64,000 nucleotides of DNA from Xanthomonas nasturtii (lineage in GTDB: Bacteria > Pseudomonadota > Gammaproteobacteria > Xanthomonadales > Xanthomonadaceae), in the NCBI RefSeq assembly GCF_001660815.1, contig NZ_LYMI01000002.1:62001-126000 (forward strand), given 5' to 3'. Shown one piece after another: positions 43,006-63,583 of this stretch. Made by a program: the position numbers and the translations under genes. Each line of letters opens with the position of its first letter. The stretch's first letter is position 1. The notes beneath the pieces are model-generated. The model saw only the letters and a program-made list of their open reading frames with translations. It did not search any database and was not told where the DNA came from.

Positions 43006-43092
43006 CATAAGTTCCGATAATAAGAGTGGATTGGGGGTTGGAATATGTGGGTATTTGTTATTGCTCTACTGCGCATGAGGTCCGTGCCGCAC

Positions 43093-44636: not shown

Positions 44637-44672
44637 ATCCCGCAAAGAGACAAGGAAAATGGAATCCGAGCC

Positions 44673-47600: not shown

Positions 47601-48656
47601 CCGGCGCTGTATCGCCATGTGCAAACGCAGCCGGCGGAGATGGAGCAAGCGCCGATCCGCCAGCAAGACGTGGCGCGTGAGCAGGAGGCAGAGCCGGTTC
47701 GGCCCATGGCCACAACAGTTCCTGAGACAGCAGAACCGTTGATTGCATCGCCTTCCACACCGTCTGCCACGCCTGAGCGAGAAGCCGAGACCGAACAGCC
47801 CCGTCCTTCAAACGCCTTGCTCGCTGATCATGGTGCGCCGGTGCTGCCCCCAGAACACTTCGCGCAAGCGCGTGAGCAGTCATTGGCAAGCAGTGCCGAC
47901 ACTCGCGTGCCGGTCGGGTCTTCTGACGCAGAAAACCAACGCACCCAATCGACACCGGCGCAGGATCGTAGCGCCGCAGACCCGGGTGGTGCTCTGTTCC
48001 TCGAAGAAACCATGCGCTCGCTACGCCAGCTGCAACGGGAGATTGAGCTGGCGGATCGGGAAGACGAACGCTTCCACCAGGAATGGAAGGAGTATCGCGA
48101 GCGCGGAGAACCTTATCCTTTCGTTCGCGACGGCGCGCGGGACCGGGAGAGCGGAAGCATGGATGCATTCAATGCGCACGAACAAGGCCACCGCTCTCCC
48201 AGTGAAGCTGCCGAGCAAACCGATGACTTTCCAGCTATGGCTCAGCACTTCGCCGGTCCAGGGGTAGGGGATGCGCCAACCGATTCGTCGCAGACTCAGC
48301 GAAAATCCATCACCGGCGACCCGGATGTGGACGAGGTGCTCTACGCGCTCGACAGCAAGAACGAGCTGGCGATTGAGCAGGCTCTAGATCGTGTCGCCAA
48401 TAGTGCAGCGACGCAGGCGCTGTTGAAGAAGGGCAACGATTTCCTGGAGGCGCAGGCTCAGCAGGAGGCCCAGGAGCTCGCCGCCACACGCCAGGCACTA
48501 GGGATGGATGTCTCAGCGGAGGTCAACACCAGCCGTGGGCCGGTGATGGTGCTGACGCTGCCGGAGTTCGCCAAGGGGCCGATGCAGAGCGGTCCCCAAG
48601 GGGACGGCGGTGGAGGTGGAGACGGTGGAGGCGGTGGTGGTGGGGGCGGCGGTTAG
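44673..48656 (+). CDS. Large AHH-nuclease-like polymorphic toxin with Gln-rich and Gly-rich C-terminus
   Basis: The 1327-residue protein opens with an AHH/HNH-type nuclease signature: DHH at 10-12, DIH at 35-37, NRLFLP at 41-46 and HSGGPLAEY at 60-68. A helical region follows, with a hydrophobic Ala/Gly stretch near 310-350 (GGWAGGASTAAAIGGSGFVP). Next are repeated short units around WQFNGRNWQREA, NQNWRRNPESQAWERE and RTELGQWAGRDG, then a Gln/Arg/Glu-rich coiled segment (about 730-890), a disordered Pro/Thr linker and a tail of glycines with two aspartates. It resembles toxins delivered by Xanthomonas T4SS, but the XVIPCD motifs were not found. Placing the nuclease at the N-terminus is unusual for polymorphic toxins. 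Delivery route is inferred. Confidence 0.7.
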   Translation: MSNYRTLFQDHHEIEQQTLKNSKLLATLQEAGKFDIHASENRLFLPADPRLAQAMGITPHSGGPLAEYQRGMLRNLDQIEKTRDYRSALSGDAAALDRVVQKVEHLRDTVKVGLINGDLNTNTPIGQTAAQTSQKVRDFFHNVSSYSQAHAQQLQNLKGFSGVDHGWGAVTNSESRIVVALNQIQVNNTPLTRGGNTELQRSGLSLALSNAHQDGRVALSEQGILKVEQVLGEEAAQNLRVPRGQRGAASMEVLLGNASASTLVRSGGLLATGADAVLTARRSAELLEQGNATAAQSEVQHAIARNAGGWAGGASTAAAIGGSGFVPAALVVGDALLMSKAFDKGADLLDNRAIYHQTDKAGVEWQFNGRNWQREAAIDLAQDRRRTSGEQPVVASYEKSQELGALANAKAVELALGKAPPPQDPFNLPAQASDQVGLDNQNWRRNPESQAWEREVKTSVSGANDRGSYEHQTASPERTQQLNQEALGRIESNIATGREAIAVAYLENHAAQRAQAYGVEVPAAVQAAQAKPGAVLGSDARLYQRTELGQWAGRDGVASGNLAVELELTNQMRQPSLERSQEALAAIQALPAPTAAQIEHNELLHRYRAAGVDLNVNPDTQQAVTLASQRTMDANGITGPTMQQLQRNESGQYGYDSPIAHLQRGNDGVTRVVAVTSSEDIRQALGEARGNRQESATFARAPEATGEADTSTSESSNPQQVLDMQARMQASVAAQARQEREQQDRVAQEQHAAQVREHLQQPQPGREDRAQSEQAVQAHAVLEGQRQAEQQRELEERQVQERQAQTSQQRELQERGERDAQQRQAQERQADNQQREQQDRQAQETRQVEAQEGQARQAQQQDQRQEASQQPDAQLHATDAAPVQQTPRPELQQTDVYQQLETHNQQVGERAAHTTLDPRTRAPDPGDAQPQAQEGASALERQALESRDTAHLQVSPSGGRGSGDQPVQSVQTDAVSPALYRHVQTQPAEMEQAPIRQQDVAREQEAEPVRPMATTVPETAEPLIASPSTPSATPEREAETEQPRPSNALLADHGAPVLPPEHFAQAREQSLASSADTRVPVGSSDAENQRTQSTPAQDRSAADPGGALFLEETMRSLRQLQREIELADREDERFHQEWKEYRERGEPYPFVRDGARDRESGSMDAFNAHEQGHRSPSEAAEQTDDFPAMAQHFAGPGVGDAPTDSSQTQRKSITGDPDVDEVLYALDSKNELAIEQALDRVANSAATQALLKKGNDFLEAQAQQEAQELAATRQALGMDVSAEVNTSRGPVMVLTLPEFAKGPMQSGPQGDGGGGGDGGGGGGGGGG

Positions 48657-48695
48657 TCAAAATCGCTTCTGTGACCAGACGCGTTAGGAGACCTC

Positions 48696-49346
48696 ATGGA
48701 CAGGCAAGACGCCGCCGCAATGGCGGAACTGACGGCGACGTTGAACGCGTCGAACGCATCATTGCAGGAGACGGTCAAAGTGCTGACAACGCTGGTGGCA
48801 TCCATGCAACAGCGAGAGCAACGGCTGCGCGATGTGGTCGCCGAGCAACTCCGGCTGCTCCAAAGCGCCGCTAGCAGCGCCGATGTCAAAGTCAATCGAG
48901 TACTGGAAAACGCACTCCCGCGGTTGACTCAGCTGACCCACCAGGCGCTGGCGCAAACCTTGGAGCCGGCAGTCAAGAAATTCAGCGACGAGATGGTCAA
49001 CGCTGACAAGACGCTTCAGAAGGCGACCCAGCGCTATACGCAAGCGCAACATTCGCTGGAGACCAGACTCACGCGCCGCATGGGCATGGCATCAATCACC
49101 ATGCTTGTAGCGGGCACCCTTGGCCTGGGTGCGGTGGTCTACTCGATGAGCATCATCGGCGAGAAGCGGAGCGAACTGGCGCAGCTGCGGGCCTCTGTCG
49201 ACTACTGGGAGCGCGTCGCCCGAGCGGACCTAGCTCCTTGTGGGGAAGGGCGGCTCTGTGCAACCTTCGAGAGAAACGGAACGCGTTACGGTGACCAGAA
49301 GCAATACCGTGCTATCAACTTACGAACTGCCCCGGCAACGCGGTAA
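48696..49346 (+). CDS. Coiled-coil membrane protein, mobilisation-protein-like
   Basis: This 216-residue protein has a long coiled coil (residues 5-125), one membrane helix (GMASITMLVAGTLGLGAVVY, about 130-150) and a C-terminal part YWERVARADLAPCGEGRLCA with RYGDQKQYRAINLR. The arrangement recalls relaxation/MobB-type proteins encoded next to relaxase genes on plasmids and ICEs; I am not certain of the family. GGAG lies five bases before the ATG, and the toxin gene ends 39 bases upstream, so they form one transcript. Confidence 0.55.
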   Translation: MDRQDAAAMAELTATLNASNASLQETVKVLTTLVASMQQREQRLRDVVAEQLRLLQSAASSADVKVNRVLENALPRLTQLTHQALAQTLEPAVKKFSDEMVNADKTLQKATQRYTQAQHSLETRLTRRMGMASITMLVAGTLGLGAVVYSMSIIGEKRSELAQLRASVDYWERVARADLAPCGEGRLCATFERNGTRYGDQKQYRAINLRTAPATR

Positions 49347-49747
49347 AGCTTGAAGATGCCAAAATGAAGTGCTTCATCCTGTCAAGTTGAGGGCGCACGG
49401 GCTTGCCTCTCGCCGAGAACATCAAGCTGCTCGATGCAATTCCTCGAAGCGAATACATCTCAAACCCTTAATACCTACCTGAGAGCCAGGACGTGTCTGG
49501 CCTTGCGTGGGGACGGTCCGTGCCGATCCGTCCATTGATCTGGTGATCTGATGAGGGATAAGTCTGAGTTCCTGTATTGCGTTTTGATCGTGGCGGCTTC
49601 CATCTTGGCAGCTGCCGCGCGCTGCTCTTTCGAGCCCGTCCAGCCGAAGTTTTTCCGTAACGACTGATCCATCATCCATTGGCACCGCACAAGGCCCGGC
49701 ATCGTCCGGGCCTTGTGCGTTTATGCCGCCGCATTTAGGAGAGACAC
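49347..49747. other. Intergenic region with a strong hairpin
   Basis: No gene is supported in these 401 bases. The hairpin at 49686-49719 followed by TTTATG sits just ahead of the DUF932 gene's ribosome site. Confidence 0.5.
49686..49722 (+). terminator. Perfect 14-bp hairpin upstream of DUF932
   Basis: CGCACAAGGCCCGG and CCGGGCCTTGTGCG pair perfectly around CATCGT and are followed by TTT. It may end the preceding transcript or regulate the DUF932 gene, whose GTG lies about 25 bases on. Confidence 0.7.
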
Positions 49748-50704
49748 GTGCATCTTGTTGAATCGATTGCATACAAGGGCCAGACACCTTGGCATGGCCT
49801 GGGTAACGAGCTGGGCAAGCACCAACCCATCGAAGTCTGGAGGCGCCAGGCTGGTATGGAATGGGAGATAAAAGAATCGGAGGTGCGTTACACCACGCAA
49901 GGCCGCGGCTCAGATGGTACCGGCACCTTTCCTGAGCAGAAGGTGCTCTATCGATCGGACACTCAGGCGCCGCTGGCGGTGGTGTCCAAGCGCTTCCAGG
50001 TTGTACAGCCTGGCGAGATCCTGGAGTTCTACCGCGATCTGACAGCACTTCACGGGTTCGAACTTGAAACCGCCGGCGTCCTGCGTGGCGGAAAGAAGTT
50101 CTGGGCCTTGGCCAGGACCGGACAGAGCACCGCATTGAAAGAGCGCGATAGAGTCGATGGATACCTGCTGCTAGCAACAGCGTGCGACGGGACGCTGGCA
50201 ACGACAGCGCAATTCACGTCTGTTCGCGTGGTATGCAATAACACGCTGCAGATCGCTGTGGATCAGAGTGCTGGGGCCATCAAGGTGCCACATCGCAGTC
50301 AGTTCCAGCCCGACGCTATCAAGCGGCAACTCGGCATCGTCGTTGGCGGGTGGGACGGCTTCGTGGATCGGATGAAGGTATTGTGCGATGTGCCCGTTCC
50401 TCCGGATTCTGTAGAGGGACTGCTGCGTCGTGTGTTGGTGTATGGAGGCTCGACGCCGGGCTCGGCGGTTGTCAATGAGCAGGCAGTGGCAAGGGTGCGC
50501 GCGCTATACGAGGGTGGTGGGCGTGGGTCAACCCTGTCCTCCAGTCGCGGGACTGCATGGGGTGTGCTCAACAGTCTCACCGAGTTCGTCGACCATCATC
50601 GGCGTGCGCATAGTGATGACAACCGCCGGGACGCCGCCTGGTTCGGGTTGGGGGCAGCAATCAAGCGACGTGCTTGGGAAGAGGTTCTGGAGCTGACCCC
50701 ATGA
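49748..50704 (+). CDS. DUF932 family plasmid/phage-type protein
   Basis: This 318-residue protein starts at GTG 49748 with AGGAG six bases ahead. HLVESIAYKGQTPWHGLG, VSKRFQVVQPGEILEFYRDL and FTSVRVVCNNTLQIA are hallmarks of the DUF932 family found on conjugative plasmids, ICEs and phages. Biochemical function is unknown. It overlaps radC by four bases, a widely conserved neighbour pair thought to act during establishment of incoming DNA. Confidence 0.9.
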   Translation: MHLVESIAYKGQTPWHGLGNELGKHQPIEVWRRQAGMEWEIKESEVRYTTQGRGSDGTGTFPEQKVLYRSDTQAPLAVVSKRFQVVQPGEILEFYRDLTALHGFELETAGVLRGGKKFWALARTGQSTALKERDRVDGYLLLATACDGTLATTAQFTSVRVVCNNTLQIAVDQSAGAIKVPHRSQFQPDAIKRQLGIVVGGWDGFVDRMKVLCDVPVPPDSVEGLLRRVLVYGGSTPGSAVVNEQAVARVRALYEGGGRGSTLSSSRGTAWGVLNSLTEFVDHHRRAHSDDNRRDAAWFGLGAAIKRRAWEEVLELTP

Positions 50705-51200
50705 TGGCGCTACCGCAACTCCTGGAAGGGTCTGGGATTGGCGCCATCGCTGCAGCAAGGGTTCGGGAGAACCGGACAATCACCCGCGCGCTCAAGATCA
50801 TCGAGCGGCGTGCGGCTGAGCGGGACCAACTGATGAGCAGCACTGACGCCTGTGGCAAATTCTTCCGGCTTCGGCTGGCAGACGAGCCACGGGAGCACTT
50901 TGAGGTTGCCTTCCTGGATGTCCGGCACCGGCTAATCCAGGCAGAGAGGCTGTTCTCTGGCTCAGTCGATCAGTCCATGGTGCATCCGCGCGTCGTGGTC
51001 CAGCGCGCTCTGTCGCTGAATGCGTCGGCAGTTTTGGTAGCCCACAACCATCCAAGTGGCGATCCAGAGCCATCGGCGGCTGATCAGGCTGTGACAAAGC
51101 GGCTTGGGGAAGCCCTGGCATTAGTGGATGTAGGCTGCTCGACCATTTCGTGTTGACCAATCGAGCGGCGCTGTCCATGGCTAACCGGGGCATGCTTTAG
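50701..51200 (+). pseudogene. radC: RadC-type JAB-domain protein, frameshifted near the 3' end
   Basis: From ATG 50701 (ATGA overlap) the frame encodes a JAMM core with VAHNHPSGDPEPSAAD, FEVAFLDVRHRLIQAERLFS and MVHPRVVVQRAL. After ALALVDV it shifts to a short unrelated end (GCSTISC, stop at 51156). The expected RLLDHFVLTNRAALSMANRG continues in another frame to TAG at 51198-51200. One base is missing around 51127-51132. The JAMM residues remain, so the 151-residue form might keep its fold, but the usual C-terminal strand is lost. RadC-like proteins are mobile-element accessories of unknown activity. Confidence 0.8.
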
Positions 51201-51310
51201 ACCCCGAGCTGGCGATAACTGGTGGAGCTATTTTCTGCCGGGCTGTCAAGCTTCAGTTGACGTCTTCAAAGTCAAGACGTGGCTGCCGATCTTGTTTTGA
51301 GTGTTATCAG

Positions 51311-51640
51311 CTAAGGCTTAAGCATTTCAAGAATAGCTTCTCGCTTCTTGCCGGAAAGCTTGCGAAAACGAATAAGCAGGGCTTCTTCTTCTTTCGTCGC
51401 CGCATGCAGGCTTGATTTTCCCATATCCGACAAAGCCGCTTCCCCGTCTAGCACAAGTGAGTCTAGGGACTGATTCAACGCTTGGCTGAGATCAGCCAGA
51501 GTGCGGAAACTCGGAGTTTCACGGTTGTTTTCCCAAGCTGACACGGAAGACTTAGTGACTCCGACGCTAAAGCCAAGCTGCTCTTGGGTCAGGCCGGCTG
51601 CAGTTCTGTACTTGCGGAGCCGATCACCAAAACTGTTCAT
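51311..51640 (-). CDS. XRE-family HTH transcriptional regulator
   Basis: This 109-residue repressor-like protein starts MNSFGDRLRKYRTAAGLTQE, with the Cro/CI-type helix-turn-helix QEQLGFSVGVTKSSVSAWEN. A short helical C-terminus ends in KKREAILEMLKP. The start at 51640 was chosen over 51667 because the HTH fold begins there. CACCAAAAGTATGGTG just upstream on the plus strand (51662-51677) is partly palindromic and could be its operator. It probably controls neighbouring island genes. Confidence 0.82.
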   Translation of the reverse strand: MNSFGDRLRKYRTAAGLTQEQLGFSVGVTKSSVSAWENNRETPSFRTLADLSQALNQSLDSLVLDGEAALSDMGKSSLHAATKEEEALLIRFRKLSGKKREAILEMLKP

Positions 51641-52038
51641 TGCCGATGCCCCCGTAGAGGACACCAAAAGTATGGTGAATCCGCACCTTTGTCGTGCGGC
51701 AGTGCTTGACTAGATGTGTTCGGAAATACAATACTTTGACAGTTCTGGAACCCCGGACGACCTAGTCAAATGGCACCTGCTGAGCAGGCGTTGTGACTTG
51801 ACGGCAATGCCACCGCGTCACCGAGTGGCAGTCTCTTCGTAGCAGGTGCTTCAGATAGTTCTATAGGGTCTCAACACTGGCGAGGACGGGAAGGCGCTAC
51901 CAAACTTGGAATTCAGACGGCTGAAGCATCACAAACCCCGCTATTACAGACGTAACGGCCATTTCGGCCAATTTCCTCTCAGAAATTTGACTTGATGAAG
52001 TCAGACCTCTCACCCGCTTTTCAAACCGTAAGGAATTT
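51641..52038. other. Intergenic region with possible promoter
   Basis: Within these 398 bases TTGACT (51706-51711) and TACAAT (51727-51732), 15 bases apart, resemble a plus-strand sigma-70 promoter, close to the imperfect palindrome at 51662-51677. No gene is supported. Confidence 0.4.
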
Positions 52039-53067
52039 ATGAGATTTAAAACTATTGCCGTTTTGGCGGCATGCGTGGTGCTTTTTGGTTGTGATCGCGG
52101 AGGAGCACCAAAAATTAGACTAGATGAGAATTTAACATGCGAAGCTCTTATTGAAGCACGCGTAATGAACGACGCTGCCACCTACGGCAACATCTGGAAG
52201 ATGCCTCTAAATGCAGCCGCCAGGGAATATGGAAACGACACAGAGATTGAGGCCTACTTCCAAAACTCTGTCCTCAGGGACTCAGCGTTGGTGGGTGATA
52301 TCCATCAGAAAATTTACCAGCAATGCGTCAATGATGCCGACACGTCCATGGCGAGTGCATTTCGAGAGTCGCTTGACCAGTCCTTTCAGGAGAACAAGGA
52401 TTCCGCGCGCTATGGGATTTGCATGGCATTCAATGAGGGGCGGATCGCGATTAAAACTGTCATGGCGATCATCATCGCCCGGGAGGGCAAGTTTGACACC
52501 ACGGTCGATCCTAACGATCCACGCATCCTAATCTTCCAGGATGCCCTGACCGAACGCTGCTCAGCTGACCCGAGCTCGCGGGTTTTGAAGCATATCGAGT
52601 CGGTAAGCTGGGAACTGCAAAAGAAAGAACAGGAGCAACGAGAGCAAGCACGCCTTCAAGCCGAAAAAGAAATGATTAGAGAGTCCTTAGCTCTAAGTGA
52701 GCGACTTAAATCAGAAGTGGGAGCCGGTCATGCATCTTCGTGCGCGGACATGCTTCGCCTGACGTCAGAACCCAGTAGTGAGATTGCCGAGGCGGTTAAT
52801 AACACGGTCAATATCGCCACCGAAGCAGCGCTAGCGAAGCTTTCTGTAGAGCAAGCCGCGTACACGCGGGACAACATTGATCGGGCAGCATTTGGTATTG
52901 ACTTCAAACGCTGCGCCGACTCGAATGGAAATATGGACAATGCTGTCGATCTGTATAACTGGAATAAATCTGAGGTTGCTGCTTGGGCCATCCTTAACCA
53001 AGGTCTGATTCAGCAGGAGGCAGACAAGCGCGATAAATTGAAGCTGCAAGACGCAGGGGGGGGATAA
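52039..53067 (+). CDS. Orphan island lipoprotein
   Basis: This 342-residue protein has a lipoprotein leader MRFKTIAVLAACVVLFGC (lipobox LFGC, then DRGG; Asp at +2 predicts inner-membrane retention). It is mainly helical and charged, with a coiled segment QKKEQEQREQARLQAEKEM. Six or more cysteines are spread along the chain. I recognise no family. AAGGA lies five bases before the ATG. It is placed next to a defence block, but no functional link is visible. Confidence 0.65.
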   Translation: MRFKTIAVLAACVVLFGCDRGGAPKIRLDENLTCEALIEARVMNDAATYGNIWKMPLNAAAREYGNDTEIEAYFQNSVLRDSALVGDIHQKIYQQCVNDADTSMASAFRESLDQSFQENKDSARYGICMAFNEGRIAIKTVMAIIIAREGKFDTTVDPNDPRILIFQDALTERCSADPSSRVLKHIESVSWELQKKEQEQREQARLQAEKEMIRESLALSERLKSEVGAGHASSCADMLRLTSEPSSEIAEAVNNTVNIATEAALAKLSVEQAAYTRDNIDRAAFGIDFKRCADSNGNMDNAVDLYNWNKSEVAAWAILNQGLIQQEADKRDKLKLQDAGGG

Positions 53068-53445
53068 CCGAAGAAAAGAAGCTTTAAGTCCAACGCGAGC
53101 AGATAGCCCGACTCGACACAGAGTTAGACCACATAGACAAAGAGTCGGGCTTTCACTGAATCCCGCAAGCCCTTGCTACATGTAAGTGACCCGGCGTCTT
53201 GCTGGGCTAACTCAACAACGACAACCGGAAACGGTGCAGAGGTGTCTGGCGGATGCGTTACTTTGAGCAGGCGCCAAAATGCCCGTACAATCTAATCGGG
53301 CTGGTCCCAGACTAGCCCGTTCAGTTACAGCAGGTGTCAGCGAAGGCACTAGGCATGGCGCCTACCTGGCGTGAAATGGATTCGACGTCTAAACGTGACT
53401 GCATGGTGCAGCAGCATGACGTTAAGCTAGCCAAAAATGGACTTA
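53068..53445. other. Intergenic region between convergent genes
   Basis: Apart from the inverted repeat at 53105-53151, these 378 bases show no gene. Confidence 0.45.
53105..53151 (+). terminator. Inverted repeat, possible terminator
   Basis: AGCCCGACTC pairs with GAGTCGGGCT across a 27-base loop, followed by TTCACT. It probably ends the lipoprotein transcript. Confidence 0.5.
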
Positions 53446-55782
53446 TTAGGGTCTACGCCGAGAGGCTTGGGATGTATTGAACAACCCAACAAGCTCGGCG
53501 ACCTCATTCTTCCGGGGAAGAAAAAAAGGATCGTTAGTTGCACCCAGCGCGGAAACGGCGTGAGCAATATCTGGCTTGACGCTGCGAAGCATTCGATCAA
53601 TGTGAACCTTGTTGTTTGAATAATTTCTAGTCGATTCGTACATATCTTCAAAAAAGGATCTAAGGTCATTGATCGACGAGGAGATGCGATATGATCTAGC
53701 ATGAAGCTGTGCGCGCACAAATGTCGCACTGTAGTACGTTGTGTTTTTAACATCACTATTTTCGGCTCTGACCTTTCCGGCCCATTGCTTACCGTCTAAA
53801 AAGTCAGTCTCGGACCGGCCAGAGATAAGTTGACTTTTGGCGCGCTGTATCCAATAGTGGCCGTCTTCTTCGAAGGGTTGCTGAATTAATTCATACACCT
53901 CCCGAATAAATGTGTTGACGCTGCCTCCGGCAAGTTCGTTAAGCTTGTCAAAGCTTATTAGATTGTTTGCGGTAGTGCGGAAGCCATCCTTCGCAAGAGC
54001 AACGATTATCTCAGCGATAATTGCAGAAATGCGATCTCGCTTAAACTCGTCCTTTACGACGCGTACAAGCCAAGAAGTTGAGTTGCATATAACCGCTCCG
54101 ATGGATGAGTTTGATTTACTCGAAATATGTTCTAAAAGTCGATCATTGCTGAGAATGAATTCATTGATAGCAAAGTTTGGTAAGATTGCTTTAATAAGTA
54201 TTCTTTCCGCTTTTCCAAATGCTGCTATGAGGATGAGCACTTTTAGCTCGTCGCTGTTGTACGCTCTTTCGAATAGCGCGTTAGGTGGAAGCTGGCTTTT
54301 GTAATTACTAAAATAGTGATACGCAAAGTTCAGTAAATTGTTTTTTGTGGAGTAATTTGCGAGCCCAAGGGAATTTAGAGACTTATTAAAATTTTCAGTC
54401 TCATCTTCAGTCAATTTGTTCGGTATCGCAATCTCAACGAATTGGATAGATCTGCTGCCAATTCTGAACCTAAAAAGATCTGCGTCACCTTGGCTGGCAC
54501 ACAGAATGATTTTATTGGACGGGTCCGTTTTAGCGGAAAGGATCGCATCCAAGGCCTGCGAGTCGAGAAAATTTGAATCGAAGAAGAATGCGTGGTTTCT
54601 TCTACTTGCGAGAATACTCAAAATCTCAGGACTAAAGGAATCGCTAGTAGAAAAAAATGATGTGCTATAGTCATGGATAGCTTCGATTGTTTGTAGTAGC
54701 AGCGTCGTTTTTCCGCTAAATCGGCGACCCACGACTAGCAAAAGCTGGGACGAACGAATGCTCTTTGTAATCGAGTCTACTTCTTGACGTCGTGGAAAAA
54801 TTGCAGGGCACAGCGCTATTCGCGAAAGCTCATCCGACTTCATCAGTGGACCGCCGTTCGCAATCAAATGCATTGCTTCCGCTGCCGTGATATCCGGCAT
54901 GTCTTCGACGGTTAGTTCGCGCTCAGGAGTGACGATTTTAGCGTCCTTGAGAACCGACACGAGCCATCGCGGAATTTCATCGTACTGGTCGAAGTATATG
55001 ACTCGATCAATGCCATACGAGCTTAGCTTAAGACCTTCCTCGAAATCGACCTTTCCTTTTTTCAAAAATATAGATTTGCTAAACGGCACTTTCTGAGCAA
55101 GACTCATTAGATCCAACTCGTTATCGAGCGAGCATCCTATAAAAATAAAGGAGGAGTCTATTGCTTGCTCTTGTATAAAAGAGAGCATGCTGTAATTTGT
55201 ATCGATACTGTTGACGTACTGCGCCCAAGTGAATACCGTGTTGCCTGTTGTATATGCACACAGTTCTTCTACATCGCCATGAATCTTGAAAAGGCATCTA
55301 TTTGAGGAGATGTACTCTTTCGCCACTTCTTTATTTGGCAAGAGCTTTTTGTATTTGCTGGCGACAGGCTCAATGGCGTCGTCTATATTGAAAGTGAAGA
55401 TGTGAGGCCATGTCAATTTGAGGAGATCACTTTTATAGGCTCCATTTAGTTTGACGTCGGAAAAAGTATTGCTTAAATATGTTCTTGCGCTTGCGGAATC
55501 AATATACTCATTCTTGAAAAGCAAATTAAAAGCGACTTTTAGATCCGTGATATTTCGCATTTGCTGCGCTATTTGAGGATCCTTGCAGCGCTCACTGGCC
55601 ATAGTGGTTATGTGCTTAGTCATAGAGGCTGCACTGGGCACGCGGCCTTTCCTCGCCTTCTCGTCCTTTGTAAATCCGCTCCCAAAAAACGGCAATAACC
55701 TTCCGCTTTCGTAAATGCGTCGAATTTCCGCGGATGCTGCTGGTTCCTTAAAGTGCTGCTGTTCCATATGTGAAAACTCCAT
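53446..55782 (-). CDS. SIR2-STAND antiviral defence protein (Avs5-like)
   Basis: The 778-residue protein has an N-terminal SIR2-like domain with FFGSGFT (32-38), TFNIDD (130-135), KIHGD with the catalytic His168, and FIGCSLDNELD (214-224). A STAND-type P-loop ATPase follows: Walker A GRRFSGKTT (352-360) and a Walker B-like HAFFFD (397-402), then a long helical C-terminus suited to sensing. This order defines SIR2-STAND systems such as AVAST type 5, where activated SIR2 depletes NAD+ and aborts infection. It sits beside a restriction-modification operon. AT-rich composition suggests transfer. GGAG before the second Met (55767) makes that start more likely. Defence function is inferred. Confidence 0.8.
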   Translation of the reverse strand: MEFSHMEQQHFKEPAASAEIRRIYESGRLLPFFGSGFTKDEKARKGRVPSAASMTKHITTMASERCKDPQIAQQMRNITDLKVAFNLLFKNEYIDSASARTYLSNTFSDVKLNGAYKSDLLKLTWPHIFTFNIDDAIEPVASKYKKLLPNKEVAKEYISSNRCLFKIHGDVEELCAYTTGNTVFTWAQYVNSIDTNYSMLSFIQEQAIDSSFIFIGCSLDNELDLMSLAQKVPFSKSIFLKKGKVDFEEGLKLSSYGIDRVIYFDQYDEIPRWLVSVLKDAKIVTPERELTVEDMPDITAAEAMHLIANGGPLMKSDELSRIALCPAIFPRRQEVDSITKSIRSSQLLLVVGRRFSGKTTLLLQTIEAIHDYSTSFFSTSDSFSPEILSILASRRNHAFFFDSNFLDSQALDAILSAKTDPSNKIILCASQGDADLFRFRIGSRSIQFVEIAIPNKLTEDETENFNKSLNSLGLANYSTKNNLLNFAYHYFSNYKSQLPPNALFERAYNSDELKVLILIAAFGKAERILIKAILPNFAINEFILSNDRLLEHISSKSNSSIGAVICNSTSWLVRVVKDEFKRDRISAIIAEIIVALAKDGFRTTANNLISFDKLNELAGGSVNTFIREVYELIQQPFEEDGHYWIQRAKSQLISGRSETDFLDGKQWAGKVRAENSDVKNTTYYSATFVRAQLHARSYRISSSINDLRSFFEDMYESTRNYSNNKVHIDRMLRSVKPDIAHAVSALGATNDPFFLPRKNEVAELVGLFNTSQASRRRP

Positions 55783-56241
55783 GACGTGACTTGCATCTTA
55801 GCAGTGGGCGAAGGCGTTTACAGGAGGGCGGTCTAGGGCGAGAGCTCAACTTGAGCAGTCATCTCGCGGTCGATGCCTCAGGTAGCGCGCTAAAGCTTGC
55901 TTTCACTTAACTAGTAAAAGCTGGCTACGGTTAGTCGTAGCCAGCTTCAGCGGTAATTGCTCTAAAGGATCTTTCCACTGGGTAGGGCGGGACGTTAGGG
56001 CGGTCGAGTTAGTGCCTACTTGACGAAACGGGTGCCGACTTAGTTCCCAAATCAAGTTGGCATTGCCAAACAGAAAGGCGAGGTGCGCGGCCCCGACCCT
56101 GTCAGGTGATGCGGAAAGCGCTCAGTGCTGTGACCAAGACTGAGCCCACTCTTGTAGTGCGCATTTGAAGATTTTAGTTCGATGAGCGCTTGGATTCGAT
56201 AGACACTCGTAGAGCATGGCTACAAAAGCATGTCTAGCAAT
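55783..56241. other. Intergenic region between defence genes
   Basis: These 459 bases hold a 12-bp hairpin (55918-55947) and otherwise no supported gene. Confidence 0.45.
55918..55947 (-). terminator. Hairpin downstream of the restriction operon
   Basis: AAGCTGGCTACG and CGTAGCCAGCTT pair perfectly around GTTAGT. On the minus strand it lies between the restriction gene and the SIR2-STAND gene. Confidence 0.55.
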
Positions 56242-57054
56242 TCAGATAAATGGCCGCCAGTCTTTTGAGTCGATTTCTTTCGCTGGTACAAGTTGGTAAT
56301 GCCGCTCTTCACGAATCTTGATTGTCGAGTCTTCAACCTTCAAGAGGAACATCGCAATTCGATCATCGTCCATGAATTGGACAGATATCGGGAGGCAAGC
56401 AAGTTCCGAGTATTTTGCCGCACAGAATTCCACGTCCTGAGTTGTCTGGACGACGCTAATTTGATCGTTTCCGCCTTTAGCCTGTACAGGCATTACGTGA
56501 TGACGACCCTCCTTGTCGATACCCACGTAGAGTTCGTCGATTTCGATTTGGCCTCGTCCTGAGACCGTGGTGCGTAGGTGGTTTTGCAGTGAGTACGTCG
56601 TCAACCCGAGAAAGATATCTATCAGGCGGTTGTATCGGACGATGGCTAGTAGGGCCTGCTCGTCCGTCTGGGCATATTGACGTATGATTTCAGGCGTAGA
56701 ATCGGGAATTTTGATCGCTTCAAAATCGGGATTGGGGCGAATTCGGCTGAGAGGCACTTGGCGGAATGCGTACAATCCGCGGCCCTTCATCTCAATAATC
56801 CATTCTTTTCCCGATTCAGCTGTTTCGCTAACTGCGATAGGAAGCGCATTGCGAAATCTAAATGAATAGAGGACGTCGCCCAAGTTCTTTGGCAGCTTGA
56901 TTTCAAGCTTCTTGGCAACAGCCTCGATCTCGTTTCGTTCGAATGTCAACTCTTTCATTCCACGCTTCCAGCGAGAAGTGAAAATATATTCGATGATCCG
57001 AGTATATCTGTTCGGCTTGCGCGAGATTTCCCTTCCTTCGATCTTGTCAGACAT
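56242..57054 (-). CDS. Putative type II restriction endonuclease
   Basis: This 270-residue cytosolic protein has a PD-(D/E)xK-like site: acidic EIDELYVGID (171-180) followed by PVQAKGGND with Gln191-Ala-Lys193. The rest is mixed alpha/beta without a family I can name. It ends a three-gene minus-strand operon, starting eight bases after the cytosine methyltransferase stop, exactly where the cognate endonuclease of a vsr-dcm system is expected. The recognition sequence cannot be read from sequence. Confidence 0.7.
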   Translation of the reverse strand: MSDKIEGREISRKPNRYTRIIEYIFTSRWKRGMKELTFERNEIEAVAKKLEIKLPKNLGDVLYSFRFRNALPIAVSETAESGKEWIIEMKGRGLYAFRQVPLSRIRPNPDFEAIKIPDSTPEIIRQYAQTDEQALLAIVRYNRLIDIFLGLTTYSLQNHLRTTVSGRGQIEIDELYVGIDKEGRHHVMPVQAKGGNDQISVVQTTQDVEFCAAKYSELACLPISVQFMDDDRIAMFLLKVEDSTIKIREERHYQLVPAKEIDSKDWRPFI

Positions 57055-57062
57055 GAAAGCTC

Positions 57063-58355
57063 CTACGGCCGAAGTTCGCTAGGTACGGCGGTAGCGTTAG
57101 CCAGAGATTCCTTACGCGTGCGTTGTGCAATTACGGTCCTCGCGACTTGGAAATGGGCGGCTGCCTCAGACATATCGAAATTAAGCAGCGATTCGTGGCC
57201 GGTCTCGATCTGTTTTACCGGCTTCTCTGGATTGTGCTTCAGGGCTTTGACGATTGCTGAGCCCACGGCACGTCCCAGGTGTGGCGGCACCGAGTTGCCG
57301 ATCTGTCGAAATCCGTGCCATTTGGTAACATGAAATCTGAACCAATCAGGATATGAGTGAAGGCGGGCAGCCTCTCGAACAGTGATCACGCGAGGGTGCA
57401 CTGGATGAATCGGACGCGGAGACGTGAAGGCTCCGCGCGCGCTGTCCGTCCCTGCTCGTAGCGTGTTGCAAACCCCATTCGGCGGGAGTTTGAAGAAACG
57501 GCTGATAGGCTCAGTCTTACCGCACTCGGTTGCTGCAAATCGCTCGCGCGATAAGTCGGTATGGCCGGTCCTGGCACTAGCTGTTAGAAGGTCTCGGTCA
57601 AATTTCCGCGGGTAAGAAAAGTCGCTCTGGTCTACTTCAAGGCCACGGAGCAGGCGCGCATAGCCGGACTCGGTCGAATATTTGGCTTTGACCGAGTCCG
57701 TATTGAGCAGAGTCTTGTACTTGTCAGCGTTTGGAAGATCGCTGATCGCTTCGCCTACGGTTGTCCTATGTGTCGGCTCGGGATAGGAAGGCATCTGGAG
57801 GCCTGCACGAGCTCCGAAGAGGAATAGACGCCGTCTGTCTTGGGGGACACCGTAATCGGCCGCGTTGAGCACCCGATAGTTCTCTTCGACCCTATAGCCC
57901 GCAGCCTTCAGCGCATCGATGATTTCCACAAGAAATCGACGGTGCTGGCCTAGTGTCAGTCCCTTCACATTCTCGAAAACGAAATACTTCGGACGGAGCT
58001 CCGAAATTAGCCGCACGTAGTGGAAGACGAGTCTGTTTCTTGGATCGTCCAGCGCACGCTTGCCGATCATAGAGAAGCCTTGGCAGGGGGCTCCGCCGAC
58101 GACGACGTCTACATCTCTCTCGCCGATGCCGGCTCGAGCGCGAATTTCGGTGCCGCTTAGGTCGGCGACGCTCGCACAGATCGCCGTCGAATAGGGGAAG
58201 TTGTACTCGTGCGCGGCGCAATGAATCGGATCGATTTCAACGGCGGCAGCAACGTCAAAGCCCGCTTGCTCGAAGCCGAGTGATAGGCCACCTACGCCTG
58301 CGAATAGGTCTATGACGATGGGTCGCTTACTTGTTTTCGCTTTCGAGGTACTCAT
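57063..58355 (-). CDS. dcm: DNA (cytosine-5)-methyltransferase
   Basis: This 430-residue C5 methyltransferase shows the ordered motifs: FAGVGGLSLGFEQAG (I), GAPCQGFS with the catalytic Cys91 (IV), ENVKG (VI), QDRRRLF (VIII), REAARLHSYPD (IX) and QIGNSVPP (X). The target recognition domain lies between VIII and IX. It transfers a methyl group from S-adenosylmethionine to C5 of cytosine, protecting host DNA from the endonuclease encoded next. It overlaps vsr by 29 bases. Confidence 0.95.
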   Translation of the reverse strand: MSTSKAKTSKRPIVIDLFAGVGGLSLGFEQAGFDVAAAVEIDPIHCAAHEYNFPYSTAICASVADLSGTEIRARAGIGERDVDVVVGGAPCQGFSMIGKRALDDPRNRLVFHYVRLISELRPKYFVFENVKGLTLGQHRRFLVEIIDALKAAGYRVEENYRVLNAADYGVPQDRRRLFLFGARAGLQMPSYPEPTHRTTVGEAISDLPNADKYKTLLNTDSVKAKYSTESGYARLLRGLEVDQSDFSYPRKFDRDLLTASARTGHTDLSRERFAATECGKTEPISRFFKLPPNGVCNTLRAGTDSARGAFTSPRPIHPVHPRVITVREAARLHSYPDWFRFHVTKWHGFRQIGNSVPPHLGRAVGSAIVKALKHNPEKPVKQIETGHESLLNFDMSEAAAHFQVARTVIAQRTRKESLANATAVPSELRP

Positions 58356-58743
58356 GGATCTTGACTGATATGGCTTCGGGATCTCTCAGCTGACACTGCC
58401 AGACCGTAAGGCTGGTCCAGCCGAGGGCGTCGAGTTCGGTGATGATACGCGCGTCCCGCTCACGGTTTGCGACAAGCTTTGCGAGCCAGAACTCGGCGTT
58501 CGTTTTAGGAGTTCTTGAGAGCCTACAGCCTTCATGGCCATGCCAGAAGCATCCATGTACAAAGATGGCCTTGTGGCGCGACGGAAAGACTAAATCGGGC
58601 TTGCCAGGCAGGCTTTTACCGTGTAGCCGATAGCGGTAGCCCATGCCAAAGACAAGGTGGCGAACCAACAGCTCGGGCTTTGTGTCCTTCGATTTCACGC
58701 GACTCATGAGCCAGCTGCGCCGCTCGGGTGTCAGACGGTCCAT
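58327..58743 (-). CDS. vsr: Very short patch repair endonuclease
   Basis: This 138-residue Vsr endonuclease starts MDRLTPERRSWLMSRVKSKD and has the family core PDLVFPSRHKAIFVHGCFWH with the metal-binding Asp and zinc-type Cys/His (CFWHGHEGC). It nicks at T:G mismatches produced by deamination of 5-methylcytosine, limiting mutations caused by the adjacent methyltransferase. First gene of the vsr-dcm-endonuclease operon. Confidence 0.95.
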   Translation of the reverse strand: MDRLTPERRSWLMSRVKSKDTKPELLVRHLVFGMGYRYRLHGKSLPGKPDLVFPSRHKAIFVHGCFWHGHEGCRLSRTPKTNAEFWLAKLVANRERDARIITELDALGWTSLTVWQCQLRDPEAISVKIHEYLESENK

Positions 58744-58936
58744 TCAGCTATGCCTATCTGCAACTACATTGATGATGACAAGTCGGAACGCGGATAGCTT
58801 GCCATGATTTGAAATCGGATGTTCCGGGGCCGCTTACACCGAGGAAAAGCTGCGACCTAATGAGGCTTCAGGAGCATAAACGGCGCGTCTGAACACGGCA
58901 CCTTGTGGCGCGAAACCGTGTCCCAGTCGTGGCCCG

Positions 58937-59411
58937 TCACCCGGAGCCAGCATAAAGTCGAAGATTACCCAGTCCCTCGTCGAGAGGGTGCCCCGGCCCG
59001 AATTGGGCAAGTCGACGCATGTCGTTCGCATACCAGCGCACCGACTTGGCTGTCGCCGTCGCACCCTCGATCTGCGCGTTGACCATCTCGGCCACCAGTG
59101 CGTACGGGAAGCTCGCGGGGTCTATCGGGATCTCGCGCATGCGAGCGCGCCGATGCCCTTGCCATGAGGCTTTCTCTCGCCCCTTCGGCCGCCTCGACGA
59201 CGTCGGCCTTCGGTTCTGCGCGCTGCGCGGTCGCCTTGGATTTCTCGGCTGCCCGAGCGAAGTGAGGTCGATGTTCCTGTTCGGCCGCGACCTGCTCCAT
59301 CCGCGCTACGAGCTTGCCTCGGGTCGCAAACGTCTTAGGAACCGCCGGCTTCTCTGCGACCCGGTTGTGCAGGTCCAGCAGTTCCTTGGTAGGCATGTGC
59401 TCTAGCTTCAT
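58937..59411 (-). pseudogene. Frameshifted hypothetical island gene
   Basis: From ATG 59411 the frame reads KLEHMPTKELLDLHNRVAEK and PKTFATRGKLVARMEQVAAE, then loses sense. The sense-like sequence REIPIDPASFPYALVAEMVN and GATATAKSVRWYANDMRRLA continues in a different frame to about 58937. A small indel near 59140-59190 explains this. The C-terminal part resembles DUF3489-like helix-rich domains that read T-x-KS-x-xYYA; the function is unknown. It diverges from the ParA gene. Confidence 0.55.
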
Positions 59412-59530
59412 AGCGTTTCCTACGCGTTTGTGGTCACGCAGGCACTGGGTCGCGGTTCCCTCGATCCGTGCGCCCCTTGACCAGCGCTGTGTACGTTGTA
59501 CACTGAATCTGTGAATGATGTTCACAGGGC

Positions 59531-60598
59531 ATGGGTGTGACTGAACAGACCGATGAATTGGTGGGAATAGGGGAGATCGCCGAGATAGCAGGGGTGTCGC
59601 GTCAAGCAGTCGCCAATTGGCGGGTGCGGGCGGCCGACTTTCCTGCTCCGGTTACGGAACTTGGTTCCGGCCCGATCTTCCGGCGATCACAAATTCGAAC
59701 TTGGCTGAGGCGAAACAAGAGGAATACTCCGATGGCGCATGTGATTTCTACGATCAACTTGAAGGGTGGTGTGGCGAAGACGACTACGTCCGTAGCCTTG
59801 GCACAAGTCTTCTCAGCAGAGATGCGGAAGAAGGTCTTGGTCATCGACCTCGACCCTCAGACCAATGCAACCATCATGTTGCTTGGGGAAGACAAGTGGC
59901 TTGAGCTGAACGACCGAGGACACACGCTCGCGCAGTTGTTCAAGGACGCAATGAATCCTGATGTAAAGAAGTTCGACCTTGACGCCACGCTTCAGAAGCG
60001 GGTAGGCGATGTCCATGAGGCCAGAACCATCGACCTACTGCCGTCGAGCCTGGACTTGATCGACGTGCAGGATCAACTCGCGTCAGCGCCATCGGGAAAG
60101 TTCTACGCCGTGAACCCTGTCGAACTTCTTTGGCGAGCTGTCAAATCAAGACTGGATGACTACGACATCGTCATTGTAGATTGCCCACCGAACTTGGGCA
60201 TCGTCACTCTGAATGGTCTACGCCTGTCGGACGCCTACATCATTCCGACTATTCCCGACCACCTTTCGACTTATGGTATCCCTCAGATCGTGACCCGCAT
60301 TGGTGAATTCGCACAGGCAATTGGTGAGGAGATTGATCCGTTGGGTATCGTCATCACCAAGTACCAAGCCAACTCGACGGTGCACAACACCGTACTGAAG
60401 CAACTCCAGACTGATGCAAACTTCCCCGATGTGTACGCGACGAAGATCAAGCAAACCAACACTGCGTCGGCAGCAGCGGAGTACACCGCGCATAAAAGAA
60501 CGCTTAGGCAGAAGTATGGCTCTGACCCAAATGGCCTGACCTCGACCTTCATCGAGTTGGCTAAGGAGATTTGGAGCGACCTGGAGGGAGAGTTGTGA
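59531..60598 (+). CDS. HTH-ParA fusion ATPase
   Basis: This 355-residue protein has an N-terminal MerR/phage-type helix-turn-helix (IGEIAEIAGVSRQAVANWRV, residues 13-32) and continues at residue 68 as a full ParA/MinD ATPase: deviant Walker A NLKGGVAKTT (77-85), LVIDLDPQTNAT, and IVDCPPNLGIVTLNGL. ParA ATPases position plasmids or islands along DNA. The fused HTH could bind its own promoter or a centromere-like site. ATG 59531 is used; the internal Met68 would give the bare ParA. It overlaps the next gene by four bases. Confidence 0.88.
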   Translation: MGVTEQTDELVGIGEIAEIAGVSRQAVANWRVRAADFPAPVTELGSGPIFRRSQIRTWLRRNKRNTPMAHVISTINLKGGVAKTTTSVALAQVFSAEMRKKVLVIDLDPQTNATIMLLGEDKWLELNDRGHTLAQLFKDAMNPDVKKFDLDATLQKRVGDVHEARTIDLLPSSLDLIDVQDQLASAPSGKFYAVNPVELLWRAVKSRLDDYDIVIVDCPPNLGIVTLNGLRLSDAYIIPTIPDHLSTYGIPQIVTRIGEFAQAIGEEIDPLGIVITKYQANSTVHNTVLKQLQTDANFPDVYATKIKQTNTASAAAEYTAHKRTLRQKYGSDPNGLTSTFIELAKEIWSDLEGEL

Positions 60599-61113
60599 GT
60601 CTTAAGAACACACTCAATCGCTTGATCCGTGTGGTGATCGAGGAGGCGGAGCGCAACCCTGACTTCGAGGCTGCACTTGCCGACGCCTTGGACTCGGCAC
60701 CAAGTAGGCGCAAGTTAACAACAGCGGAGAGCTCAAAACAAGTGGATGCGAACGAGGCAAAGCGCGGGAAGAATCGGCGCGCTCCTGCCGTGCTCGATCC
60801 TGTTCAACTCGCACGCGACAGCGAATCGGGTCTACGTAGCGCGCTCGAAAAGCTATCCTTAGATCAGCTTCGAGATATCGTTGCCGAGTATGGAATGGAT
60901 CATGGTCGGCTTGTGATGAAATGGAACACGCCGGAGCGCGTAATCGAGAGGATCGTCGAGATGTCAGTAGCGAGAGCGCACAAGGGCAACGCTTTTCGTA
61001 AGTCACCTGACGACCCCGCATCTCTGGCTACTGATGTAGATGAAACGCCAACCTCAGATGACCAAGTAGTTAGTAGTCCTCAAAAGGATCATGAAAAAAA
61101 GGGGGTGCCCTGA
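60595..61113 (+). CDS. ParA-partner protein, putative
   Basis: This 172-residue protein starts at GTG 60595 in a GTGA overlap with the ParA stop, with GGAGGGAGA just upstream. It is charged and helical (VSLKNTLNRLIRVVIEEAER, DQLRDIVAEYGMDHGRLVMK), with disordered linkers and no recognised ParB motif. Position and coupling suggest the DNA- or partner-binding half of a partition pair. Alternatively it is an unrelated plasmid accessory. Confidence 0.65.
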   Translation: MSLKNTLNRLIRVVIEEAERNPDFEAALADALDSAPSRRKLTTAESSKQVDANEAKRGKNRRAPAVLDPVQLARDSESGLRSALEKLSLDQLRDIVAEYGMDHGRLVMKWNTPERVIERIVEMSVARAHKGNAFRKSPDDPASLATDVDETPTSDDQVVSSPQKDHEKKGVP

Positions 61114-61161
61114 AGACTTCCTCTCGAAACACGGCCGAGTCACCATGTCTTCCGGGCACCC
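61103..61161 (-). terminator. Large hairpin with U-tract on the minus strand
   Basis: GGGTGCCCTGAAGAC (61103-61117) pairs with GTCTTCCGGGCACCC (61147-61161) at 14 of 15 positions. On the minus strand CCCCTTTTTTT follows, giving a good terminator for the decayed genes to its right. Confidence 0.65.
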
Positions 61162-61257
61162 TGGCCCGGCCGCGTTTGCTCGGTCATTCAGGGAGGAACG
61201 CGACGTGTGCCTGCGAGTCACCAACCGGTCGGCCCGGCGCCTGGTCTCGCGGTCCAC

Positions 61258-61442
61258 TTACAGGCCCAGTGGGCGGCGGTACGGCATCCCAGCTAGGCGC
61301 GTCGCGTCGTCGAGGTAGTCGGAGTACGGGCGACATACGCGACCTCGGCCCGTTCGGCCAGGGACGTGAGCAGTTCGCAGACAAGCTCGGCGAGCGTGAT
61401 CGGCACCGGGTGGTCCGCCGAGTAGTGGGCCAGCTTATTCAT
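61258..61442 (-). pseudogene. Decayed high-GC gene, actinobacterial-like
   Basis: ATG at 61442 begins MNKLAHYSADHPVPITLAEL and VCELLTSLAERAEVAYVAR, but the frame stops at 61293. Sense-like sequence DYLDDATRLAGMPYRRPLGL continues in another frame to TAA at 61258-61260, so an indel has broken it. The Arg/Ala/Leu-rich, GC-extreme codon use resembles Streptomyces-type genes more than the neighbours. Its ATG overlaps the end of the next remnant by eight bases, as in a former operon. Confidence 0.45.
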
Positions 61443-61920
61443 CGCCGCCCCCGATCAGTTCCTGGTTGATGTCCCGCTCGCGTATCGCGAGCGGGATCGA
61501 GCTGATGGGGTTGGCCTTGCCGGCGTTCCAGGTGTGGATGGTGACTAAGATGCCCCGGAGGCGCGCGTCGCCCAGCTTCACGTACTACTGGACCTTGAGG
61601 AAGTCGCACATGCGCATCGCGGTGGCCAGCTCCACTGGGCCGACCGGGCGGTTCTTGGATGGCATGCGGTCGATCAGGGACAGCACCGCCGAGGCTGGGC
61701 TCGCTTGCGCGTACCCGACGGCGACCTAGGCCATGTGGCCGAGCTCGGCAGGATCGGCGTACTGGAGCTGCTGGAGGTACTCGGTGCGCTTGGGGGCGCT
61801 CAGGGCTCGCGGGCCAGGATATTTCGCCGGGGAGTCGTACAACGGCTTTTGCGCGACGAGCTGCAAATGCGGGGCGCCCGTGGTCCTCCTGTCGCCTATC
61901 ACGAGCGCGCCCCCAGCCGC
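61435..61920 (-). pseudogene. Decayed high-GC gene with two in-frame amber codons
   Basis: One frame reads through LYDSPAKYPGPRALSAPKRT, EYLQQLQYADPAELGHMA, TAG (61726-61728), VAVGYAQASPASAVLSLIDR, MPSKNRPVGPVELATAMRM, TAG (61585-61587), YVKLGDARLRGILVTIHTWN and GKANPISSIPLAIRERDINQ, ending TAA at 61435-61437. Both stops are TAG and could each come from CAG by one transition. The family is unknown to me; the style suggests an actinobacterial plasmid or phage protein. The upstream side ends in the G21 tract. Confidence 0.45.
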
Positions 61921-61941
61921 GGGGGGGGGGGGGGGGGGGGG
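61921..61941. repeat. Homopolymer run of 21 G
   Basis: Twenty-one consecutive G residues on the plus strand, far longer than anything else in the window. It marks the sharp junction between the high-GC remnant and the following normal island sequence. It may be a true tract or an assembly artefact. Confidence 0.9.
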
Positions 61942-62184
61942 CTGCGCGCTAATGCGCTGACCGGATGCGTTCAATGTATCGGAAAGCGTGGGCGACGAAC
62001 GCAATCGTTCTCTGAGCTTGTTCCCTGGCGCTACCGCTGTCGCGGAGGCTGGCGGTTGATGGGCTTGGCGTCGCGCCGCTGCCCGATCAATTGTCAGAGG
62101 GAAAAAAACTTTCGCAGCATTTGCGACGCACTCATGGTTTTATTCGAAGGCATCAAGCCGATGCGCGCAGGGAGAAGCAAACCC

Positions 62185-62466
62185 ATGGCAAACAATCTGA
62201 TTGTGTCTTACGACCTATACAGCCCAGGACAGGATTATTCGAAGGTTATTGAAGCGATCAAGGCCCTAGGTTCGTGGGCGAAGGTCCATAAGTCCGTCTG
62301 GTACGTCAATTCTAGCTACACGGCTACTCAGGCTGCCGATAAAGTCTGGGAAGCGATGGACCGCAACGATTCCCTCTTCGTGGTCGATGCCACCAGCAAC
62401 AACGCAGCTTGGCAGAATCTGAGTGATGAGGTCTCGAATCACGTTAAAGATCAGTGGTTCAAGTAG
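62185..62466 (+). CDS. SinR-family / Cas2-like small protein
   Basis: The 93-residue product starts MANNLIVSYDLYSPGQDYSK and includes KALGSWAKVHKSVWYVNSSY and SLFVVDATSNNAAWQNLSDE. This matches the small ferredoxin-fold family annotated as SinR, related to Cas2 and VapD-type nucleases. No CRISPR array or cas1 is near, so it is an orphan. Whether it cuts nucleic acid is unknown. ATG 62185 is chosen from family length; GGGAGAAG lies upstream. Confidence 0.8.
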   Translation: MANNLIVSYDLYSPGQDYSKVIEAIKALGSWAKVHKSVWYVNSSYTATQAADKVWEAMDRNDSLFVVDATSNNAAWQNLSDEVSNHVKDQWFK

Positions 62467-62621
62467 GAGTGTGTCGCCCGGGCCACGTTGGCTTGGAGCA
62501 GCGTCCGATCAAGCTGCAGCCGAAGTCCAAAAAGATCGGTGCGAAGGGCGCTGACCACGGGGATAGCAGCTCCGGCTTACTTGAAGCACCATTTGGATAA
62601 AATTCACCTCGGACCGACAAA

Positions 62622-63323
62622 ATGCAAAAGCTTTCCAACTTTGGCGACATTCGGCAGACAGGGTTTTGCGTTCACTGCGGGGGGGCAGCGGAATCGCTGG
62701 ATCACGCACCTTCAAAAGTGTTCTTAGACATTCCATACCCTCCTACTCGGCCCACGCTGCCCAGTTGCACCGAATGTAACAACCAGCGGTCCTCCGATGA
62801 AGAGTACTTGGCTTGCTTTATTGAATGTGTCATTTGCGGAACAACTGAACCAGCATTGTTCGGACGCGAGAAGATCGCCAGAGCCTTACGGCGAAATAGC
62901 AAGCTTAGACAGTTGATCGAGACGTCCAAGATCCAGACGGAGTCTGGGGAGGGTGCACTACTAGTGTGGTTGCCTGATGAGGCCAGAGTCCGACAGGTCG
63001 TTTTGAAGTTGGCGCGGTGCCATGCGGCCTATGAACTCAACGAACCTCAATTGAGTGCTCCCAGCCACCTCTCGATCTTGCCTCTCCCGACTTTGTCGGA
63101 AGCTCAACGCGAACACTTTGAGACTCCGCCAGATAGTTCGGTATGGCCTGAGGTGGGAAGCAGAGCTACGCAACGCCTATTGACCGAAGACAAAGCGTAT
63201 TCAATGGGTTGGATCACCGTCCAAGAAGGCCGGTACAGATACATGGCCATTGGAGCAGAAGCCGTCATGATCCGAGGCGTCTTGAGCGAGTACTTAGGCT
63301 ATGAGGTGATCTGGGAGAACTGA
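62622..63323 (+). CDS. HNH-like zinc-binding protein
   Basis: This 233-residue cytosolic protein has a split zinc-binding core of the HNH/treble-clef type: CVHC (Cys16, Cys19), LDHAPSKVFLD with Asp27-His28, and SCTECNN (Cys49, Cys52). The rest is a helical and beta domain without recognised motifs (WITVQEGRYRYMAIGAEAVM near the end). Members are common on islands and often annotated as HNH endonucleases. Activity is not proven. Confidence 0.7.
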   Translation: MQKLSNFGDIRQTGFCVHCGGAAESLDHAPSKVFLDIPYPPTRPTLPSCTECNNQRSSDEEYLACFIECVICGTTEPALFGREKIARALRRNSKLRQLIETSKIQTESGEGALLVWLPDEARVRQVVLKLARCHAAYELNEPQLSAPSHLSILPLPTLSEAQREHFETPPDSSVWPEVGSRATQRLLTEDKAYSMGWITVQEGRYRYMAIGAEAVMIRGVLSEYLGYEVIWEN

Positions 63324-63338
63324 CGGTTCGCCCGAATT

Positions 63339-63414
63339 TGGTGCCGCTTGTCCGAATCGGACGGACGACCTACTGACTACAAATCAGTTGCTCTAACGAC
63401 TGAGCTAAGGCGGC
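63339..63414 (-). tRNA. Second, divergent tRNA-Thr (anticodon TGT)
   Basis: On the minus strand a 76-base cloverleaf folds: acceptor GCCGCCT against AAGCGGC (one C-A mismatch), anticodon stem ACTGA/TCAGT with loop TTTGTAG giving TGT, T-stem GTCCG/CGGAC, and encoded CCA. The T-loop is TCCGATT instead of the usual TTCGATT, so the conserved T55 is C. It is only loosely similar to the tRNA-Thr(TGT) at 40841-40916 and is probably carried by the mobile element; function may be impaired. Confidence 0.75.
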
Positions 63415-63583
63415 GATGTCGTACCTCTACTGCTCAAACCGGGTCCGGCTTGTACTTCAGTCTACGCGCTTGCGAGCCTACAGCCTCGCCGCGCCTAGCC
63501 TCCGGCCGGTCACGACAACAACCCGCGTCCGAGTGACAATATGTGTCGTCTCGCTTGATGGTGAGATTAAAGTCCTGCGGGGG

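Follow-up and report, generated by a model that had tools for sequence, protein, structure and literature searches.

The locus lies in a 64,000-nt stretch of Xanthomonas nasturtii DNA (the window) and comprises four genes on the minus strand. The gene avs5 (53446..55782) encodes a 778-aa protein with a predicted SIR2-STAND-helical C-terminus arrangement, corresponding to NCBIfam NF041814, the PADLOC Avs5 model and PDB 9nah. Beside it are located the genes of a Type II restriction endonuclease (270 aa, 56242..57054; PADLOC REase_II PDLC03404, 398 bits), a C5-cytosine DNA methyltransferase (430 aa, 57063..58355; PF00145, 8.6e-70; TIGR00675, 205.8 bits, cut-off 100.65) and a Vsr mismatch endonuclease (138 aa, 58327..58743; PF03852, 4.4e-32; TIGR00632, 145.8 bits, cut-off 97.85). 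These three restriction-modification (R-M) genes are intact and share the strand of avs5, and the DNA_methylase and Vsr matches exceed their Pfam cut-offs; the complete three-gene set that an earlier, sequence-only reading of this DNA had placed next to a SIR2-STAND gene is thus confirmed in all its frames.

Vsr is a mismatch nuclease for deaminated 5-methylcytosine. The vsr and methyltransferase genes overlap by 29 nt and the methyltransferase and endonuclease genes are separated by 8 nt, a spacing that suggests co-transcription of all three as one operon. Pfam holds no family for the window endonuclease, whose core, E171-I-D173 ... A192-K193, is common to all three proteins aligned and looks PD-(D/E)XK-like on visual inspection. 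The closest C5 methyltransferase and endonuclease pair found resides on plasmids of Klebsiella and Salmonella (and a few other genera), where the best identities reach 66% for the methyltransferase and 61% for the endonuclease. The plasmids bearing endonuclease relatives measure 4.2-15.7 kb among the listed records, and 57 of the 65 endonuclease records are predicted to be mobilizable. Within the genus, the window endonuclease is present in one of 35 genomes, and relatives of the methyltransferase, down to a threshold of E 1e-60, in three of 35, counting the window's own genome. The XorII system of Xanthomonas oryzae has the specificity CGATCG. A methyltransferase, an endonuclease and a vsr homologue are ascribed to XorII in passages of one source (PMC4853030, including the title of its Choi & Leach 1994 reference), and the window set, with the same three components, is likened to it by description only. 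Going by their families, the window genes form a separate Type II R-M system, which should cut unmodified DNA. Two further loci, in genus genomes without Avs5 (L031, 2469-5287; L032, 537-2399), contain a Vsr-like gene, recognized by eye, and a C5 methyltransferase with 60% identity; next to them in L031 lies the gene of a 276-aa protein that shares 23% identity, and the E-I-D ... A-K core, with the endonuclease of the window.

Both avs5 and the R-M set ride on an integrative element inserted at a tRNA-Thr(TGT) gene (40841..40916, plus strand). The last 16 nt of this gene (40901-40916) constitute the left att site, from which the element extends (40917..64000) past the window end to window-equivalent position 65024, giving a size of 24.1 kb. 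The second, exact att copy occupies window-equivalent positions 65009-65024, just beyond a tyrosine integrase gene whose C-terminal part falls inside the window (63584..64000, minus strand; PF00589, PF13356 and PF22022 above cut-off) and which is complete in L003:10584-11843 (window-equivalent 63584-64843). The unoccupied site was searched for with a 294-nt query that joins the left flank (1-115) directly to the right flank (116-294) and omits the element. This query is matched unbroken along its full 294 nt in G031 (89%) and G015 (81%), and gives one match from position 1 to at least 45 nt beyond the junction in G001, G003, G016, G002 and G011. The empty site is hence present in seven of the 34 other genus genomes, a count that leaves out G004 (match 67 to 226). 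Most of the remaining genomes match the left flank only; in G032 the two flanks lie 3.8 kb apart, so that a different insertion may be present there. The genome of the window itself gives two separate matches to the query, with 24.1 kb between them. The element thus has exact borders, with direct repeats derived from the tRNA-Thr gene, an integrase and an unoccupied site in related genomes. The G+C content is 0.67-0.72 over the 3 kb that precede the element on its left, compared with 0.43-0.58 over avs5 and the R-M genes; one 4-kb segment of this element shows ~82% identity to Xanthomonas plasmids (19 of 78 matching records).

Besides having this precisely bounded mobile location, avs5 is rare. 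Only the window's own genome carries an Avs5 over the curated cut-off, whether among 35 genomes of the genus, 299 drawn from the order or 369 drawn from the class. The gene is therefore not a core gene, and the mobile, patchy island anticipated in the sequence-only reading agrees with the att repeats, the integrase, the empty site and this distribution. At E 0.001 the class search returned five of 369 genomes, in four of which the match spans 54-60 profile positions of the ATPase part and falls well short of the cut-off; the order search matched three of 299, two of them partially (128 positions of the SIR2 part and 76 of the ATPase part) and under the cut-off. Named full-length relatives occur in Superficieibacter and Roseateles, with two more in viral contigs and three distant ones in Clostridia metagenome-assembled genomes. 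An alignment query with the solved chain retrieved five loci, three of them distant at 22-26%, and plasmid records gave three distant matches at 23-24%, with none above 24% identity. There was no match to the Avs5 gene in a DNA search of E. coli genomes or to the protein in phage records, PHROGs contains no family for Avs5, and a single-sequence scan of named genomes produced 20 pattern matches and no relative.

A promoter scan finds five sites against a shuffle mean of 5.0 and is uninformative as to expression. That avs5 and the R-M genes are intact in sequence yet silent or non-functional in their host is unlikely, since four undisrupted frames whose catalytic residues are conserved would argue for recent selection.

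The two sets of genes are adjacent, on the same strand and on the same element, an arrangement that could also reflect a single coordinated system, in which Avs5 might, for instance, serve as a back-up on restriction failure. Such a coupling is very improbable. A 459-nt gap parts the Avs5 gene from the R-M endonuclease gene, and the endonuclease, methyltransferase and Vsr are found in none of seven related Avs5 loci; tblastn with these three proteins, the integrase and ParA returned nothing at E 1e-3 in the flanking sequence retrieved (at most 8 kb on each side, less in L010, with 5.8 kb in total, and in L014). Conversely, G014 and G023 contain related methyltransferase-vsr sets and no Avs5 match, and relatives of the methyltransferase-endonuclease pair are carried by enterobacterial plasmids. 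The full-length homologues illustrate the first point: those of Superficieibacter (L008, 46% identity), Roseateles puraquae (L009, 42%) and the viral contigs (L013, 43%; L014, 35%) have different surroundings, the viral ones lying between phage tail genes (L013) or slightly downstream of them (L014), and none of the four shows the window's R-M set. In L014 a D12-class adenine methyltransferase gene, unlike the C5 enzyme of the window, is located immediately upstream of Avs5. Because relatives of each are found without the other, the shared element is the sole link, and Avs5 and the R-M set look like independent cargo, co-carried and not coupled.

The assignment of the protein itself is clear from profile searches. 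Residues 6-766 match the Avs5 equivalog model NF041814 at 1223.7 bits (cut-off 1000) and residues 6-773 the PADLOC Avs5 model at 991.5 bits; the nearest solved relative, PDB 9nah/9nc9, aligns over residues 6-770 (E 8.6e-206). Both models support the AVAST type 5 assignment already proposed from the letters of the sequence, as well as the joining of a P-loop ATPase to the SIR2 part, and both run near full length. The SIR2 motifs recognized at that stage in the 778-aa ORF are present (FFGSGFT 32-38, TFNIDD 130-135 and KIHGD 166-170, in first-ATG numbering), and the N-terminal domain matches SIR2_2 (PF13289, 7.8e-10, 39.4 bits, cut-off 24.5) with intact GxGxS/T, TxNxD and H/N-G motifs. With a SIR2 match and an Avs5 match across the protein, the absence of a SIR2 or ATPase fold, named as one outcome that would speak against that reading, does not apply. 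The P-loop GRRFSGKT covers residues 352-359, of which G352, G357 and K358 of the Walker A motif are common to the window protein and 9nah (all in first-ATG numbering). The label "STAND" for the putative central ATPase rests on the Avs5 models, as the Pfam STAND models are all under cut-off (best match nSTAND_NTPase5, 6.7e-5, 23.2 bits, cut-off 34).

Translation probably begins at the second ATG (residue 6, window 55767), which would give a product of 773 aa, because this is where both Avs5 models begin and where the initial Met of 9nah, L008 and L013 falls in the alignment; the L009 and L014 proteins begin three residues before it. In the numbering from this second ATG, N127, D129, H163, G164, G352 and K353 are the same in the window protein and in all seven aligned relatives. 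These residues correspond to those described as essential in PaAvs5-1 of Pseudomonas aeruginosa, i.e., the Asn and Asp of TxNxD, the H/N-G motif position and the Gly and Lys of Walker A, in the sections of PMC12931631 that deal with them, a correspondence that supports the Avs5 reading. The catalytic motif is HG in the window protein and NG in PaAvs5-1 (same sections of PMC12931631).

A score over the curated cut-off, the SIR2 motifs, a Walker A NTPase and a homologous helical C-terminus are thus found together, and the protein is a full-length member of the Avs5 family with intact catalytic and Walker A residues. The gene very probably encodes an Avs5 (AVAST type 5) antiphage receptor, with its working parts predicted by homology to studied members. 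It is scarcely credible that the protein belongs to another SIR2 antiphage family (DSR1/DSR2, ThsA or SIR2-pAgo) and is merely Avs5-like: the weak matches to ThsA (PADLOC runner-up, 24.2 bits; PDB 8wc0, E 4e-5 with the A3 profile) are confined to the SIR2 part, whereas the Avs5 models reach 991 bits over residues 6-773 and 1224 bits over residues 6-766, no DSR-named family is among the six listed by PADLOC at E up to 1, no whole-length match to DSR2 or ThsA was found, and the gap in score and coverage speaks strongly against such a family. The Avs5 of the window is a good further example of an already described type and not a new kind of system.

The C-terminal part, which the sequence-only reading had considered unlike anything nameable, aligns with other Avs5 proteins and is 43% identical to 9nah over residues 461-773, so that, judged by alignment, it is an ordinary Avs5 C-terminal domain. 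The observation made in that reading was right, and its hint of novelty is not borne out. Identity to 9nah amounts to 50% over residues 1-280 and 40% over 281-460, and to 45% over the whole length with the C-terminal part included. Compared with the solved Avs5 (9nah/9nc9, "SIR2 family protein", 769 aa), the length and the order of the parts are alike, but ~55% of the residues differ; a literature search on the entry codes 9NAH and 9NC9 found no relevant paper. The C-terminus is more diverged than the SIR2 part when set against the more distant relatives: identities are 32-45% versus 42-50% in the four full-length relatives, and 17-19% versus 24-27% in the three Clostridia proteins. The arrangement of SIR2, STAND and C-terminal helical sensor is also shared with PaAvs5-1, -2 and -3, and Avs5 clades 1-4 are distinguished, in the parts of PMC12931631 devoted to classification.

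An AlphaFold2 model, built with an input of 8 sequences, is of moderate confidence (mean pLDDT 76.5, the best of five, with the others at 64.2-71.5; pTM 0.47). In this model strands and helices alternate over the first 450 residues (SIR2 and ATPase parts), a strand (342-346), the P-loop and a helix (353-363) follow one another at Walker A, and residues 564-770 are nearly all helical. The model fits the three expected parts, with a domain arrangement that is uncertain at this pTM; the predicted Avs5 fold rests on the sequence profiles and the solved homologue.

By homology, the C-terminal helical domain would recognize an early protein of the infecting phage. In its nucleotide-bound form, the central STAND ATPase domain would then drive assembly, presumably into filaments such as have been reported for Avs5, and the SIR2 domain at the N-terminus would be activated as an NADase, depleting NAD+ and halting phage production. 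Avs5 filaments are said to have been described by Wang et al. in 2025. NADase activity, assembly and protein sensing may be ascribed to the window Avs5 by analogy with studied members. According to the portions of the source concerned with mechanism, Pseudomonas Avs5 requires the SIR2 residues, the ATPase motifs and the C-terminus, and senses the early jumbo-phage protein JADA, upon which NAD+ is rapidly lost (PMC12931631). Filament formation appears to be necessary for Avs5 activity, as stated in part of another report (PMC12700824).

A tblastn search with the JADA orthologue of phiKZ (PHIKZ124) retrieved 68 records, all 68 from Pseudomonas phages. No JADA relative was visible to this search among the Xanthomonas phage records of the collection, where distant versions may escape, since few conserved residues are reported for JADA (in the relevant part of PMC12931631). 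No JADA-bearing phage was found for the host genus in the searched collection. It is a tentative but serious possibility that the Avs5 lineage of the window senses a phage protein other than JADA through its diverged C-terminal domain. The window Avs5 leaves the knowledge of how these receptors work unchanged. It provides an Avs5 with a complete, exactly bounded mobile carrier from a genus where the gene is rare (1/35 genomes). Xanthomonas jumbo phages are known and under study for biocontrol, as excerpts of PMC13340338 indicate, so a resident Avs5 could affect which phages work.

The element contains several other genes. In the region 43995-48656 (plus strand), with ~82% DNA identity to large Xanthomonas plasmids, a gene for an Imm11 immunity protein (PF07791, 1.6e-71) is followed by one whose 1327-aa product matches an AHH nuclease weakly, below cut-off; this pair, on the same element as avs5, looks like an interbacterial toxin and its immunity gene. 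A ParA-type ATPase (59531-60598, plus strand; PF13614, 3.7e-38), with a possible helix-turn-helix at its start (HTH_17, E 0.013, below cut-off), is followed by a small gene that overlaps it and belongs to no family, and the two are partition-like genes on an integrated element. A reading by eye of 62188-62466 as Cas2-like was dropped, having no Pfam support. The 233-aa protein encoded at 62622-63323 (plus strand) has no Pfam, NCBIfam or PHROG family; it contains CxxC pairs, appears HNH-like by eye and weakly matches PADLOC PDC-M01B (E 0.0063). A second, divergent tRNA-Thr(TGT) gene is situated within the element at 63339-63414 (minus strand), adjoining the integrase. Finally, the gap between the endonuclease gene and avs5 (55783-56241, 459 nt), with no listed ORF of at least 90 aa, folds better as minus-strand RNA than its shuffles (z -2.61, with 0 of 100 shuffles folding as well) and includes a perfect inverted repeat, identified by eye, with arms of 12 bp around a 6-nt loop.
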